Below are positions 33,237-38,089 of a DNA stretch of 62,789 nt, in pieces (the first letter of the stretch is position 1; every line of letters begins with the position of its first letter). The notes below the pieces were generated by a model, which did not search any database, had not been told where the DNA came from, and was given only the letters and a program-made list of their open reading frames with translations. Source of the DNA: Candidatus Gemmiger avistercoris (lineage in GTDB: Bacteria > Bacillota > Clostridia > Oscillospirales > Ruminococcaceae). The translations under genes and the position numbers were made by a program. The stretch covers positions 1 through 62,789 of the forward strand of contig DXBF01000062.1 in NCBI GenBank assembly GCA_019116705.1. Reading direction: 5' to 3'.

Positions 33237-33893
33237 ATGACCAAGATTGCCGCATCGATCCTTTCTGCGGATTTTGCCGATTTGAAGCAGGACTGCCTCC
33301 GCCTTCTGCGGGAAGGGGTGGACCTGCTGCACTTTGACGTGATGGACGGGCACTTTGTGCCCAACATCAGCTACGGCGCGCCGGTGCTCGAAAGCCTGCA
33401 CGCCGCCCTGCCCGACGCCTTCTATGACGTGCACCTGATGATCAGCGACCCGGCCCGCTACGCCCCGGACTTTGCCAGGGCAGGCGCCGGGCTTATCACC
33501 TTCCACCTCGAAGCAGTGCCCGGCGCCGTGCCCCGGGTGATCGAAACCATCCGGGAGGCGGGCTGCCGGGTGGGGCTCAGCATCCGTCCGGGCACCCCGG
33601 TGGAGGCGGTGTTCCCCTACCTGGAAGCGCTGGACCTGGTGCTGGTCATGAGTGTGGAACCGGGTTTCGGCGGCCAGGCGTTCATGCCCGAGGCCGTCCA
33701 GCGTCTGGCGGCGCTGGACGCGGAGCGCCGCCGCCGGAATTACCGTACCCTGCTGGAAGTGGACGGGGGGATCAATGCCCAGACCGGCCCGCTGTGCGCA
33801 CAGGCCGGCGCCGACTGGCTGGTGGCGGGCAGCGCGCTGTTCCGTGCGCCGGACCCCGCGCCGGTGATCCGGCTGCTGCACGGCGAGGCCTGA
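33237..33893 (+). CDS. rpe: Ribulose-phosphate 3-epimerase
   Basis: Interconverts ribulose 5-phosphate and xylulose 5-phosphate in the pentose phosphate pathway. The 218-residue TIM barrel has KIAASILSADFADL (residues 3-16), LLHFDVMDGHFVPNISYG (catalytic Asp and metal-binding His), YDVHLMI and VDGGINAQTGPLCAQAG near the end. ATG 33237 follows AAAGGGA. First gene of a run that continues into three Rnf-like genes, DUF1015 and rlmA. Confidence 0.96.
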   Translation: MTKIAASILSADFADLKQDCLRLLREGVDLLHFDVMDGHFVPNISYGAPVLESLHAALPDAFYDVHLMISDPARYAPDFARAGAGLITFHLEAVPGAVPRVIETIREAGCRVGLSIRPGTPVEAVFPYLEALDLVLVMSVEPGFGGQAFMPEAVQRLAALDAERRRRNYRTLLEVDGGINAQTGPLCAQAGADWLVAGSALFRAPDPAPVIRLLHGEA

Positions 33894-33917: not shown

Positions 33918-34937
33918 ATGCCCAACCCAAAAAGAATTGATCGCAGTGAAAACTATGAATATTACAAAGACCTGCTGCTGTGCGTGATCCCGCTGGCCGG
34001 GATGGCCTGGTACTACTATGGCCCGCGGCCGCTCCTGCTGCTGGCGGTGGGGCTGCTCACGGCTTACCTGTGCGACTGTGCGCTGGCGCCGCTGCACGGG
34101 GCCGGGTATCATTCCCATGAACCGTCCAGTGAGTGCTTTGCCGCCCTGATCGTCCTGATGATGCCCGCCACCGTCCCTTATGCGGTGGTGGCGGCGGCGG
34201 TCGTTGTCGCCGTGCTGGCCAAGGAAGCCTTCGGGGGCGAAGGGCATTACCCCTTCCACCCGGCGGCCGTCGGCATGGTGGTGGCGGGGATCTCCTGGCC
34301 GGACAGCGTCTACCGCTATCCCACGCCGGGAAATGTGCTGCCGCTGTTCGGGGAACAGGATCTGGTCCTTTCGCCCGGCATGAATTCCATCCTGCGGGCT
34401 GGCGGCCTGCCCAGCGACAGCACGATGAACCTGCTGACCGGCAACGCGGCAGGCGGCCTGGGCACCAGCGCCGCGCTGGTGATCATGGCCTGCGGGCTGT
34501 TCCTGCTGGTGCGCGGGCATATCAAACCGGCCGTGCTGATCCCGTTTTTTGTGCTCAGCATCGGCCTGCCCTGGCTGCTGCCGCAGCTGAACGAACTGCC
34601 GGCGTTCAGCTGGCCGTGGGAGTTCGTGCGCCAGCGTATCTATCTGGAAAAGTATGTGATCCTTTCGGGCACGCTGCTGTTCGGCGGCCTGTTCCTGGTC
34701 TGTGAGCCGGTCACGATGCCCAACCGCACCAGCAGCCGCCTTGTGTATGGCGTGGCGCTGGGGGTGGCGACCTATGCGTTCCGTCTGGTCAGCCCCTATG
34801 AAAGCCCGGTCTGCTTTGCGCTCCTGATCGTGGGCGCGATCCCCGAATGGCTGGACCTGATCAGCCACCGCACCGAGCGTATCCGCTTTATGAGGAAGGA
34901 GGAACGGCGCCTTGCCCAGTCTGCCAAACAGGAATGA
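33918..34937 (+). CDS. RnfD/NqrB-like membrane subunit, FMN site not recognisable
   Basis: A 339-residue polytopic protein. The C-terminal half matches RnfD well: EKYVILSGTLLFGGLFLVCE plus PVTMPNRTSSRLVYG corresponds to the LLSGATMLGAFFILTDPVT region of RsxD as I recall it. In Rnf, RnfD carries FMN on a threonine in an SGATPL/QATPL motif; the matching stretch here (LRAGGLPSDSTMNLLTG, about residues 157-173) lacks it. So it is Rnf-like in fold but may not bind covalent flavin. It follows rpe by 24 nt, with a GGAG-type site, and overlaps the RnfE-like gene by 26 nt. Confidence 0.78.
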   Translation: MPNPKRIDRSENYEYYKDLLLCVIPLAGMAWYYYGPRPLLLLAVGLLTAYLCDCALAPLHGAGYHSHEPSSECFAALIVLMMPATVPYAVVAAAVVVAVLAKEAFGGEGHYPFHPAAVGMVVAGISWPDSVYRYPTPGNVLPLFGEQDLVLSPGMNSILRAGGLPSDSTMNLLTGNAAGGLGTSAALVIMACGLFLLVRGHIKPAVLIPFFVLSIGLPWLLPQLNELPAFSWPWEFVRQRIYLEKYVILSGTLLFGGLFLVCEPVTMPNRTSSRLVYGVALGVATYAFRLVSPYESPVCFALLIVGAIPEWLDLISHRTERIRFMRKEERRLAQSAKQE

Positions 34938-36159
34938 CCGCAAAAAGCGGGACCGTTCCGAAACCCTGATCATACCCCATATCACCAAAGAAATGCTGGA
35001 AAAGGCGCGCTCGATGGCGGAGCAGGGAGCTTCCCGCGCCGAGATCGAACAGGCGATCCTGGAAATGCAGGCGGCCAAAAAGCCGTCTGCCCAGGCAGTG
35101 CAGCCGTCCGCGCCGGACCCCCGCCGCATCGTTCCCACCAGCCGCCCGCGCCTGACCGATGCGGAGCGGGCCGCCATGCGGGAACAGATGCTGCAGGAAC
35201 AGACCCGCCAGCAGGAAGAACAGCGGGAGGAAGCGACGCGCTCCTTCCCGCGGCCTTCCCGTCCGGCGCCCCGGCCGCGTCCGGCTGTGCGCGCGGTGGA
35301 AAAGGAAGAACCGCAGGCGGCAGTACCCGCAGCGGAAGCGCCCGCACGGCCTGCGCCCCGGGATGTGCCGCCGGTACGCTCCGTGCCGCAGGCGGCCCCG
35401 GCGCCCGCGCGTCCGGCGGAGAAAAAGCGCGCGCCGGAAGCCCCTGCCGCCCCGGCCCCTGCCGCCCCGGCGGCGCCCTCCCGGCACCGCGCCGGACTTT
35501 TGCAGAGCCGGGCGCAGGCGGAGGCGGAACTGAAGGAGAAGATCCGCAGCGACCATATCTGGCTTTCCAACCCGGTCCTGGTACGCGGGCTGGGCCTGGC
35601 GCCCATCGTGGGGGCCGCACTGGACGGCCAGCACGCCGGCATCCTGTGTCTGGCCAGCCTGCTGCTGATCACGCTGACCCGCGTGCTGGCGGTAGCGGTG
35701 TGCCATATCAGCCGCAACCGCTTCCGCACGCTGATCTACTGCTACTGCGCGGCGCTGCTGTACATCCCGGTCTATGTTTTGCTGTATAACCTGTTTGGCA
35801 GCGACCTCAACGTGCTGGGTATCTATCTGCCGATCCTGGTGGTGGAACCCGTGGTCATCAAGCGCATGGAATTCACCGAACTGGAACCGCTGCGCGACGC
35901 GCTGCGCCATGGCTTCAACAACAGCCTGGGCATGTGCGCGGCGCTGCTGATCGTAGGCTGCCTGCGGGAACTCCTCGCATCCGGCACGGTGTTCGGCCAT
36001 ACGGTGCTGCACACGGCGCTGCTCCCGCTGGCGGCCCAGCCCGCGGGCGGTTTCGTCCTGGCGGGCGTGCTTGCGGCCGTATGGTGTGCGGCCGCCAATG
36101 CCTACACGGAATATAAACAGGAGGAGGTGCGCCGTCTGTATGCCGGCCGTAAACATTGA
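34912..36159 (+). CDS. RnfE-like membrane subunit with a long Ala/Pro-rich N-terminal extension
   Basis: A 415-residue protein in two parts. Residues 1-205 are soluble: a charged helical start (ITKEMLEKARSMAEQGASRA), then a low-complexity Ala/Pro/Glu/Arg stretch. Residues 210-400 are an RnfE-type membrane domain: NPVLVRGLGLAPIVGAA, LGIYLPILVVEPVVIKRMEF and GCLRELLASGTVFG. RnfE normally has cluster cysteines in GLCPL and TNC; here they are Ala230 and Pro313. The start is TTG 34912, 9 nt after AAGGAGG. It overlaps its neighbours by 26 and 20 nt, so the three membrane genes are tightly coupled. Confidence 0.8.
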   Translation: MPSLPNRNDRKKRDRSETLIIPHITKEMLEKARSMAEQGASRAEIEQAILEMQAAKKPSAQAVQPSAPDPRRIVPTSRPRLTDAERAAMREQMLQEQTRQQEEQREEATRSFPRPSRPAPRPRPAVRAVEKEEPQAAVPAAEAPARPAPRDVPPVRSVPQAAPAPARPAEKKRAPEAPAAPAPAAPAAPSRHRAGLLQSRAQAEAELKEKIRSDHIWLSNPVLVRGLGLAPIVGAALDGQHAGILCLASLLLITLTRVLAVAVCHISRNRFRTLIYCYCAALLYIPVYVLLYNLFGSDLNVLGIYLPILVVEPVVIKRMEFTELEPLRDALRHGFNNSLGMCAALLIVGCLRELLASGTVFGHTVLHTALLPLAAQPAGGFVLAGVLAAVWCAAANAYTEYKQEEVRRLYAGRKH

Positions 36160-36790
36160 TGGTTCGCTGCTGCGCGGCGTGCTGGAATTCCTCAGTTACA
36201 TGACCCTGGCCGTCTTTGCCGAAAATGTCATCCTGGCCCGGGCGCTGGGGGTCACCCGCCTGCTGAAGCTGGTGCCCGACCACAAAGCGCAGGTCTGGGA
36301 CTACAGCCTGCCGTTTTTGCTCATCATGGCCCTGTCCGCCCCGCTGGGCTGGGCGGCCCACAACCTGTTTTTCCCCTGGCTGCGGGGGCATCTGCCGGCC
36401 GGTTTGCCGGTGGCGTCCCTGCGCCCGGTGGTGTATCTGACCTGTGCGTTTTTGGCGGCGGGGGCCTCCTGGCTTCTGCTGGGGCTGCTGCCGCGCCGCC
36501 AGCGTCAGGCGTGCCGCGCCCAGACGACGCTGGCGGGCAGCAGTACGGCTGTGCTGGGCACGCTGCTGATCTGCACCAACCAGAACTATACGCTGCCCCA
36601 GAGCATCGCTTTTGGGCTGGGCAGCGGGATCGGATATGTGTTTATCATTTTCATCGTGCGGGAAGGCCGCCGCCGTCTGCGCAGCAAGGATGTCCCCGCG
36701 ATCTTCCAGGGGCTGCCCAGCTCCCTGATCTATGTCGGGATCCTGTCGCTGGCGATCTACGGCCTGGTCGGCCATGCCGTCGTCCTGTAA
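36140..36790 (+). CDS. RnfA-like membrane subunit lacking the cluster cysteines
   Basis: A 216-residue protein with six predicted helices. LAVFAENVILARALGVTRLL matches the RnfA segment VLVNNFVLVKFLGLCPF. AGSSTAVLGTLLICTN, PQSIAFGLGSGIGYVFI and DVPAIFQGLPSSLIYVGILS match the second half without gaps. The two cysteines that hold the RnfA side of the intramembrane [2Fe-2S] cluster are Thr39 and Thr136 here. A cysteine in LLICTN lies about eight residues from the second site. ATG 36140 follows GGAGGAGGTG. Confidence 0.78.
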   Translation: MPAVNIDGSLLRGVLEFLSYMTLAVFAENVILARALGVTRLLKLVPDHKAQVWDYSLPFLLIMALSAPLGWAAHNLFFPWLRGHLPAGLPVASLRPVVYLTCAFLAAGASWLLLGLLPRRQRQACRAQTTLAGSSTAVLGTLLICTNQNYTLPQSIAFGLGSGIGYVFIIFIVREGRRRLRSKDVPAIFQGLPSSLIYVGILSLAIYGLVGHAVVL

Positions 36791-36802: not shown

Positions 36803-38089
36803 ATGGCACTTTCCTGTTTTGTCCCGGCGGATATTCTGCTGCCCGCGGCCGGTACGCCGCTGGACCCCTGGGCCTGCATCGCAGTGGATCAGTTTACCTC
36901 CCAGCCGGATTACTGGCAGCGCGCGGAGGCTCTGGCGCAGGGGAAACCCAGCACGCTGCATATCGTGCTGCCGGAAGCCTACCTCGGCACGCCCGGGGAG
37001 GAAGAACGGCTGCGGACCATCCGCAGCACGATGGAGCGGTACCGGGCCGGCGTCCTCACGCGGAAGATCCACGGCTATGTATATGTGGAGCGCACCCAGC
37101 TGGACGGCAGCATCCGCCAGGGGCTGGTGGGCGCGGTGGACCTGGAAGCCTACGAGTATACGCCGGGCAGCCGCTCCGCCATACGTCCCAGTGAGAGCAC
37201 AGTGGTGGAACGTATCCCGCCGCGGCTCAAAGTGCGCCGCGGCGCGCTGCTGGAGACCCCCCATGTGATGATGCTGGCGGATGACGCCGCCCGGACGCTG
37301 ATCGAGCCGGTGGGGGCCTGCAAAGAGGAGCTGCCGCTGCTGTATGACGGGGAACTGATGCTGGGCGGCGGGCACCTGCGCGGCTGGGCCGTGGAGGAAC
37401 CGCAGCGGATCGCGGCCATCGACGCGGCGCTGGCGGCGCTGGCCGACCCGGACGCCTTTGCCCGCCGCTGGCCCGCTGCAGCAGGGCAGACGCCCATGGT
37501 GTTGGCGGTGGGGGACGGCAACCACAGCCTGGCCACCGCCAAAGCCTACTGGGAGGAACTGAAACCGGGCCTGACGGAAGAGCAGCGGGCGGTCCACCCG
37601 GCGCGCTGGTGCCTGGCCGAAGTGTGCAATGTACACAGCCCTGCCATCGAGATCGAACCCATCCATCGGGTGGTGTTCGGCGTGACGGCACAGGAACTCT
37701 ACCGGGACCTGGATCGCTGGGATCGCGGCAATCCGCCCCGGCCCCGGGCGCCGGTCCAGCGCTTCCGTCTGGCGGACCGGCAGGGGGAACGGGAAGTGCA
37801 GTGGCAGAACCCCGTTGCGCCGTTGACGGTGGGCAGCGTGGAGGCGTTCCTGGCTTCCTGGCTGCCCGCACATCCCGGAGCCCATGTGGATTATATCCAT
37901 GGCGCATCTGCGGCGCTGGCGCTGGCTGCGCGGCCGGGGGCGCCGGCTGTGGCGATCCTGCTGCCGGATCTGGCCAAATCGGACCTGTTCCGCGGTGTGG
38001 TGTTGGGCGGCGTACTGCCGCGCAAGACCTTCAGTATGGGCCATGCGGAGGAAAAACGCTATTACAATGAATGCCGGGTCATCGGCTGA
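36803..38089 (+). CDS. DUF1015 family protein
   Basis: A 428-residue cytoplasmic protein of the DUF1015 family. It has the opening FVPADILLPAA...WACIAVDQFTSQPDYW, VVERIPPRLKVRRGALLETP near residue 135, and VLAVGDGNHSLATAKAYW near residue 235. The last corresponds to the family's DGHHR-like motif, seen also in ParB/SerK-type nucleotide hydrolases or kinases. No reaction is established for this branch. It follows the RnfA-like gene by 12 nt with TAAGGAGG, in one operon. The C-terminus (GHAEEKRYYNECR) is conserved-looking and polar. Confidence 0.85.
   Translation: MALSCFVPADILLPAAGTPLDPWACIAVDQFTSQPDYWQRAEALAQGKPSTLHIVLPEAYLGTPGEEERLRTIRSTMERYRAGVLTRKIHGYVYVERTQLDGSIRQGLVGAVDLEAYEYTPGSRSAIRPSESTVVERIPPRLKVRRGALLETPHVMMLADDAARTLIEPVGACKEELPLLYDGELMLGGGHLRGWAVEEPQRIAAIDAALAALADPDAFARRWPAAAGQTPMVLAVGDGNHSLATAKAYWEELKPGLTEEQRAVHPARWCLAEVCNVHSPAIEIEPIHRVVFGVTAQELYRDLDRWDRGNPPRPRAPVQRFRLADRQGEREVQWQNPVAPLTVGSVEAFLASWLPAHPGAHVDYIHGASAALALAARPGAPAVAILLPDLAKSDLFRGVVLGGVLPRKTFSMGHAEEKRYYNECRVIG

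Follow-up and report, generated by a model that had tools for sequence, protein, structure and literature searches.

A duplicated Rnf membrane core in Gemmiger without the redox-cofactor sites of Rnf, and its possible use as an electron-free conduit

The genes of Rnf (ferredoxin:NAD+ oxidoreductase, RnfABCDGE) are commonly taken to mean that an organism harbors an energy-conserving pump. Here, we describe three genes of Candidatus Gemmiger avistercoris, located on a 62,789-nucleotide stretch of DNA (contig DXBF01000062.1 of assembly GCA_019116705.1, positions 1 to 62,789, referred to as the window), which encode homologues of RnfD, RnfE and RnfA in the same order as in Rnf, but in which the [2Fe-2S] ligands, the flavin mononucleotide (FMN) threonine and the riboflavin ligands of that complex are gone. 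The degenerate RnfD-, RnfE- and RnfA-like proteins are named D', E' and A', respectively, and C' denotes an RnfC-like protein that is found directly upstream of D' in deeper members of the group. The trio occupies positions 33918-36790 on the + strand:

33918..34937, + strand: D', an RnfD/NqrB-like membrane protein of 339 residues (PF03116, 8e-44)
34912..36159, + strand: E', an RnfE/NqrD-like membrane protein of 415 residues with a TTG start, the core being approximately residues 205-415
34912..35526, + strand: N-terminal extension of E', about 205 residues, rich in Pro, Ala, Arg and Glu (from its translation and composition)
36140..36790, + strand: A', an RnfA/NqrE-like membrane protein of 216 residues from the ATG at 36140 (PF02508, 7.5e-15)

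A sequence-only reading of this DNA had described three overlapping genes for RnfD, RnfE and RnfA homologues, which is borne out by the coordinates of the mutually overlapping open reading frames (ORFs) and by the PF03116 and PF02508 matches (for E', PF02508 at 8e-25, residues 213-387), all of which exceed the curated Pfam cut-offs. The NCBIfam rnfD, rnfE and rnfA models match D', E' and A' at 1.7e-29, 7e-16 and 1.3e-16, respectively, i.e., all far below the subfamily cut-offs. In a search of solved structures, the profile of the E' core matches RnfE (7zc6_E) at 8e-33 and that of A' matches RnfA (9eri_A) at 4e-33; sequence searches of solved structures with D', E' and A' returned nothing beyond Rnf/Nqr chains up to E 0.01. 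The AlphaFold model of D' (predicted local distance difference test, pLDDT, 87.8) has RnfD (8ahx_D) as its top PDB match with a TM-score of 0.77, and the less certain model of A' (pLDDT 76) is best matched by RnfA and NqrE, the first at E 0.0012. A Pfam scan of the E' extension gave no match above the cut-off. The E ORFs are 293-465 residues long in Gemmiger loci as compared to mostly ~205-280 residues in other loci, and the Gemmiger extension contains a conserved stretch near its start (ETLIIPHITKEMLEKAR...).

In Acetobacterium (A.) woodii Rnf, the [2Fe-2S] cluster is held by Cys25 and Cys113 of RnfA together with Cys25 and Cys108 of RnfE (PMC11889175), and all residue columns discussed below are numbered after this complex. 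The counts are from deduplicated alignments of 43 canonical RnfE, 24 canonical RnfA, 92 degenerate E and 89 degenerate A sequences, where "canonical" means that RnfE Cys25 is present, hence the value of 43/43 for this residue is true by definition; the Gemmiger rows are closely related, which inflates the percentages. In the window the four ligand columns are occupied by the following residues:

35599..35601, + strand: E' Ala230, RnfE Cys25 column; Cys in 0/92 degenerate and 43/43 canonical sequences
35848..35850, + strand: E' Pro313, RnfE Cys108 column; Cys in 0/92 degenerate and 42/43 canonical sequences
36254..36256, + strand: A' Thr39, RnfA Cys25 column; Cys in 0/89 degenerate and 24/24 canonical sequences
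36545..36547, + strand: A' Thr136, RnfA Cys113 column; Cys in 34/89 degenerate and 24/24 canonical sequences

All four [2Fe-2S] ligands are replaced in the window trio, and the replacing residues are exactly those that had been named from the sequence alone. The loss of the cysteines is not a matter of chance because neither RnfE cysteine is found in any degenerate E row, as opposed to 43 and 42 of the 43 canonical rows. A misalignment that hides the cysteines was rejected, since the canonical RnfE and RnfA sequences keep them in the same alignments. When the loci are instead grouped by operon, both RnfE cysteines are found in 9/9 canonical and 0/89 degenerate loci. Seven degenerate loci that were fetched later, the residues of which were taken from a quick add-on alignment, keep RnfE Cys25 in one case (1/7, L231) and are otherwise consistent with ligand loss. 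The expectation that the four cysteines are missing in all orthologues holds for RnfE Cys108 and RnfA Cys25 in the deduplicated set, but not for RnfA Cys113, which is kept in a considerable fraction of the degenerate rows, nor, because of L231, for RnfE Cys25.

Cluster ligands were also found to be missing in two other operons. One of these, outside the order, has the composition rnfC-D-G-E-A (L224:3872-8322, the same DNA as L113) and retains the RnfD FMN threonine and the riboflavin ligands; 3/4 of the [2Fe-2S] cysteines are missing and no rnfB was found; the membrane cluster may have been lost independently in this operon. The other (L225:3387-8850, the same locus as L114) is a complete rnfCDGEAB operon with Gly in place of RnfE Cys108 and RnfA Cys25, leaving 2/4 ligands.

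The second set of cofactor sites is found in RnfD, where riboflavin is ligated by N123 and D249 (PMC11889175). The corresponding residues of D', together with a cysteine gained by the degenerate proteins, are:

34257..34259, + strand: D' His114, in the column of riboflavin ligand N123
34704..34706, + strand: D' Glu263, in the column of riboflavin ligand D249
34491..34493, + strand: D' Cys192, gained; Cys in 88% of 96 degenerate and 0% of 43 canonical D sequences

The N123 column holds N in 43/43 canonical rows and in 16/16 rows from loci that keep C', H 37, N 10 and S 1 in non-Gemmiger rows without C' (n=48), and H in 32/32 Gemmiger rows. In the same groups, the D249 column holds D (43/43), D (15/16), E 26, D 20, A 1 and R 1 (n=48), and E (32/32). 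His114 and Glu263 are presumably unable to bind riboflavin. The FMN-threonine column, which is Thr in 42/43 and Ser in 1/43 canonical D sequences, is occupied by Gly154 in the window, and an earlier alignment of 93 degenerate D sequences had no Thr in this column. A search for the flavinylation motif gave no match in the window D' and 0/100 in degenerate D sequences, with a search that is insensitive (25/44 canonical D sequences match and 19/44 are missed). The absence of this motif, also part of the sequence-only reading, is thus confirmed for the window, but the orthologues are not uniform, as described below. Residues found in at least 80% of the degenerate and at most 12% of the canonical rows include, in addition to D' Cys192, also D' Cys299 (Cys in 84% of degenerate D), Asp53 and Glu295 as well as A' His212; the conservation of Cys192, Asp53, Glu295 and His212 in degenerate proteins only is a sign of new constraint.

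RnfB, RnfC and RnfG had been noted as absent from the operon, and the genes that flank the trio agree with this claim:

33237..33893, + strand: rpe, ribulose-phosphate 3-epimerase (PF00834, 1e-66), upstream neighbor
36803..38089, + strand: DUF1015 gene (PF06245, 2e-54), downstream neighbor

No rnfB, rnfC or rnfG adjoins the trio in the window (rnfB and rnfG were not searched for genome-wide in the window genome, which is 83% complete). An rnfC gene was found upstream in 0/31 opened Gemmiger loci, and rnfG between D and E, or rnfB after A, in 0/75 non-Gemmiger degenerate loci. A separate, complete rnfCDGEAB operon with all cofactor sites is present on another contig (L074) of the window genome, and the trio is therefore a paralogue; the search of this genome for rnfC gave one match above the cut-off, located in the normal operon, and a 22-bit match elsewhere. 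RnfC above the cut-off was likewise found in 17/17 tested genomes with the trio. Eleven genomes were checked for the membrane pair and RnfB; in seven, four PF02508 proteins (one pair normal, one degenerate) are accompanied by RnfB above the cut-off, whereas in four of four genomes of genus g33 (family f7; 90-98% complete) just one PF02508 pair was found and RnfB did not reach the cut-off. Two of these g33 genomes were opened (L205, L206) and contain degenerate C'DEA followed by DUF4015, the other two being judged by score. Because of this single pair and the absence of RnfB above the cut-off, the degenerate complex can stand without a normal Rnf.

D' was found in 32/34 congeneric genomes, those without a match being 68% and 71% complete, and D', E' and A' are all present in 28/31 opened Gemmiger loci, the other three of which stop at contig edges. 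A loss confined to the window genome was rejected, degenerate homologues being found across congeners. In other genera of the family D' was found in 20/26 genomes, all 20 of which were opened and have degenerate D and E, and further families (f5, f7, f15, f23 and f24) of the order also have degenerate operons in the loci that were opened. A profile search of 293 genomes of the class showed a gap in score from 328 to 254 bits; because degenerate members identified afterwards have scores down to 233-308 bits and most lower matches are unopened, absence outside the order is not proven. The ratio of nonsynonymous to synonymous substitution rates (dN/dS) of D, the E core and A is 0.13-0.30 in comparison with four Gemmiger relatives, i.e., selection on the trio appears to be mostly purifying, and decay to pseudogenes was rejected on the same ratio. 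Of the sequence-only reading, the kept fold and the lost cofactor sites are thus supported, and the trio is conserved across species.

A claim that the proteins had lost every redox carrier is correct for the window, but it fails for the clade because deeper relatives keep C' with two 4Fe-4S sites as well as the riboflavin ligands. C' is matched by the rnfC model below the cut-off and is adjacent upstream in 16/75 non-Gemmiger degenerate loci, plus in L196 by profile only (outside the distance rule). The eight 4Fe-4S cysteines of the two sites are all kept in 16/16 aligned C' sequences. In 13/16 of these, neither the GG of the GGAGFPT loop nor the AECEPY-loop Cys is found, whereas the Cys is retained in L205, L206 and L212, and one of the two glycines in L205 and L206. 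The C' of L042 (L042:2026-4386) has a long low-complexity C-terminal extension, giving 786 residues in total.

In a tree built from concatenated D, E and A sequences, which excludes L214 and the seven later loci, the degenerate rows are found on one side of one branch (35/35; UFBoot/SH-aLRT support 100/100), as are 41/41 degenerate rows in a quick tree. By these trees the degenerate trios are one clade, found in the Gemmiger family and in other families of its order. The degenerate state is presumably derived because normal Rnf occurs widely. On the 35-row tree, the absence of C' requires 1 change, an acid at RnfE position 107 requires 2 and the riboflavin pair 4, so that C' was apparently lost once. 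Partial RnfC-like matches are seen in genomes without C' (172 bits in G047 and 76 bits in G046), beside the full-length RnfC of normal complexes, and C' may have been relocated elsewhere in such genomes.

The surroundings of the trio are conserved in part. An rpe homologue is found upstream in 20/20 family and order loci displayed, and a gene for a DUF4015 hydrolase-like protein with a basic, membrane-like N terminus is located behind A' in 62/75 non-Gemmiger degenerate loci (58/71 with distinct D; in 4/75 loci D is identical to that of another locus, and of the 13 loci without DUF4015 three break off at a contig edge). All three of the proteins scanned with Pfam were confirmed as DUF4015, and in L036, L037 and L039 the DUF1015 homologue comes after the DUF4015 gene. 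Where DUF4015 is mentioned in PMC12700454, it is merely as a fusion partner, to which no function is given. A DUF4015-like gene also follows rnfB in 6/27 normal loci (25 with distinct D), namely L201, L204, L208, L215, L217 and L221, and Pfam confirms DUF4015 in 5/6 of these, the sixth, L208, being a cut-off fragment:

L201:11014-12459: DUF4015 behind normal rnfB
L204:1158-2567: DUF4015 behind normal rnfB
L215:277-1512: DUF4015 behind normal rnfB
L217:2680-3687: DUF4015 behind normal rnfB
L221:2275-3498: DUF4015 behind normal rnfB

This arrangement suggests a link between Rnf and the hydrolase-like protein, a link that probably predates the loss of the redox sites because it is found in normal operons. 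DUF4015 is found in 0/31 opened Gemmiger loci, and PF13200 in 0/14 Gemmiger genomes that are at least 93% complete and not in the window genome. DUF4015 as an essential partner of the trio was rejected on these grounds.

Other genes and partial operons were observed in the loci read. In L043:9160, L047:7898 and L049:9010, rpe is separated from the degenerate operon by a MecA-like gene of opposite orientation (PF05389 in the scanned L047 and L049). A third Rnf-like operon, composed of RnfC, RnfD and RnfG only (L087:5048-7862, L088:5806-8620 and L093:1695-4116), retains the FMN threonine and the RnfC loop residues, with no E, A or B in the stretches read, of which L093 is a short contig. In L209:5622-8423, rnfC, rnfD and an rnfB-like gene are found, and no E, A or G was detected.

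A function for the trio is suggested by the ion path of Rnf. In A. woodii, RnfA/E is reported to be the sodium channel, gated by the membrane cluster, which when reduced draws in Na+ by its negative charge; the entry of Na+ involves the RnfE residue pair R67-E115 (PMC11889175). Three residues of E' are relevant in this context:

35725..35727, + strand: E' Arg272, in the R67 column of the Na+ ion pair and unchanged; R in 92% of 92 degenerate and 91% of 43 canonical E sequences
35869..35871, + strand: E' Glu320, E115 of the Na+ ion pair; kept in 29/29 Gemmiger, 29/47 other C'-less and 4/16 C'-keeping rows
35845..35847, + strand: E' Glu312, a gained acid in the N107 column, beside the lost ligand Cys108

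Both members of the pair are kept in 29/29 Gemmiger rows. Position 107 is N in 43/43 canonical rows, E or D in 29/29 Gemmiger and 39/47 other C'-less rows, and an acid in 1/16 C'-keeping rows; overall, an acid is found in 68/76 rows without C' as compared to 1/16 rows with C'.

Taken together, these comparisons suggest that transport of ions or of a solute, independent of electrons, is the probable role of the trio. The new use put forward in the sequence-only reading, as a channel, a transporter or a platform, may be right in any of these three forms. We tentatively favor, at a confidence somewhat short of even, a model where D'-E'-A' would be the membrane core of a duplicated Rnf that was stripped stepwise of its redox chemistry and kept as a redox-uncoupled conduit for ions or a solute. 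The ancestral operon would have been rnfCDGEAB, probably followed by a DUF4015 gene. In a first step, RnfB, RnfG, the [2Fe-2S] ligands of A and E and the RnfD FMN threonine would have been lost, and the FMN/NADH loops of RnfC would have decayed (partly only, in the deepest branch), with C' keeping its two [4Fe-4S] sites and D' its riboflavin ligands. The loss of C' would be the second step. In the third, the riboflavin ligands would have changed and the carboxylate (Glu312 in the window) would have appeared, both within the branch that harbors Gemmiger, Faecalibacterium, Fournierella and Anaerofilum; Gemmiger would additionally have lost DUF4015 and acquired the long E' extension in a fourth step. 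The A'/E' pair may still offer the Na+ path of Rnf, the Arg272-Glu320 pair being kept, and the former cluster site would be charged permanently by the carboxylate rather than by an electron, such that cation movement would follow the membrane gradient or drive a solute through D'. The more specific proposition, that a sodium-pump core was turned within one gut-bacterial order into an electron-free cation conduit where a fixed carboxylate replaces the charge of the reduced cluster, with intermediates (C'DEA with riboflavin and 4Fe-4S sites, DEA, and DEA with the carboxylate) living in related genera, is possible, but held with distinctly less confidence.

A number of observations weigh against the conduit model or limit the counts given above. 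The FMN column of 96 degenerate D sequences, located in a gappy loop, is Thr in 4 and Ser in 29 cases, and the later locus L230 also has Thr. The semi-conserved gained cysteines, Cys192 and Cys299, leave room for an unrecognized cofactor or a disulfide. The acid at position 107 is missing in 8/76 rows without C' and in 7/7 later degenerate loci; because all seven have N, the acid is for the most part a feature of one sub-branch. Deeper members do not conserve the ion pair, as seen from E115 in the C'-keeping rows, and the third residue of the ion network, RnfA E88, is gone as well (Trp in 28/28 Gemmiger rows). In addition, the RnfA T110 column is Gly133 in the window, and the A. woodii T110 Gly mutant does not grow (PMC11889175). 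In comparison with the more distant L066, dN/dS rises to 0.37 (D), 0.39 (E core) and 0.74 (A). Furthermore, a canonical row was chosen as the root of the tree, in which the degenerate branches are long and from which L214 and the later loci are left out.

Among the other explanations, the one that survives best, although unlikely, is that D' is the active part, i.e., a small-molecule channel or transporter that is ammonium- or urea-like or handles a sugar-derived compound tied to DUF4015, with A' and E' as structural partners. After Rnf/Nqr, the next fold matches of the D' model are urea, Rh and Amt proteins, and RnfD/NqrB is described as related to the ammonium/urea transporter family (PMC12174285); the frequent DUF4015 gene behind A' in other genera also fits transport of a solute. 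However, these fold matches are weak (E 0.06-0.13), the Pfam and PDB sequence matches of D' are to Rnf/Nqr only and, unlike the ammonium/Rh and urea transporters, D' comes with A' and E', which are also kept under selection. Moreover, the trio stays in the Gemmiger genomes that have no DUF4015.

Less likely still, the trio could be an accessory, an assembly platform or a regulator of the normal Rnf, in which case it would take the place of the normal membrane subunits. The paralogy of the trio with Rnf and the presence of RnfC in every tested trio genome agree with such a role, which is difficult to reconcile with the four g33 genomes, where the only PF02508 pair (degenerate in the two opened) is found without RnfB above the cut-off. 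We rank lower again the possibility of a redox module that operates with an unrecognized cofactor, e.g., at the gained D' cysteines, or, in deeper members, with the C' 4Fe-4S sites and riboflavin, acting as a redox sensor or a redox-gated channel. The conserved Cys192 and Cys299, the intact C' motifs and the riboflavin ligands of the loci that keep C' point in this direction, but in Gemmiger C' and the riboflavin ligands are gone, and a search for invariant His or Cys residues in 20-23-row alignments of D', A' and E' found none.

A functionless, decaying remnant is very improbable: the stepwise loss of subunits and sites and the high dN/dS of A' relative to L066 would be expected of it, but the trio is retained nearly throughout the genus, dN/dS is low relative to the four closer relatives, and newly conserved residues are seen. 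Least probable of all is an ordinary second Rnf redox pump, as assumed for Faecalibacterium (F.) duncaniae, for which the homology to Rnf and a figure-legend statement (PMC10781979) speak, as opposed to the absence of the cluster, FMN and riboflavin sites and of adjoining RnfB, RnfC and RnfG, and the finding that A. woodii neither grows nor shows activity when these sites are mutated (PMC11889175).

The trio can be compared to a number of known systems. With Rnf it shares the gene order and, in part, the Na+ ion-pair residues, and it differs in the lost subunits and ligands described above. Two putative rnf operons are depicted for F. duncaniae A2-165, rnfCDGEAB and rnfDEA (CG447_09840-830; PMC10781979). 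The latter consists of the same three genes as the trio, in a related genus, but is named as a putative energy-conserving rnf; the likeness is drawn via other Faecalibacterium records (L166, L170 and L189), in which the trio is followed by DUF4015 and all four cysteines are absent, and not via the F. duncaniae proteins. In the open-access literature no description of the missing cofactor sites of rnfDEA was found. The evidence argues against the published putative-Rnf label, and the trio should not be counted as a second Rnf pump. The Na+-NQR, which shares homologues as NqrB, NqrD and NqrE, is also traced to an rnf duplication with loss of rnfB (PMC4014512) and has a 2Fe-2S cluster in NqrDE, FMN and riboflavin (PMC12052999). 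In contrast to NQR, which gained NqrF, the trio lineage lost cofactor sites and no gained redox subunit was seen (the trio flanks are rpe and DUF1015, and no genome search for NqrF/NqrC was made). Finally, two-subunit NQR/RNF-like redox systems are described as a D-like subunit fused to an NAD-binding domain together with a flavinylated G-like subunit (PMC8238504, PMC10979944), i.e., they are also partial Rnf with, in these accounts, a D-like subunit without the FMN threonine. The D' protein differs in that PF03116 is its only match above the cut-off, with no PF00175 fusion.

Gemmiger and Faecalibacterium are gut anaerobes and butyrate producers. Should the trio be unable to carry electrons, the models of their energy metabolism would have to be corrected. 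The lineage would also be a natural series that bears on which part of Rnf carries Na+ and on how much of the coupling is due to the charge of the cluster, and the cofactor-free A/E pair is directly testable for flux.

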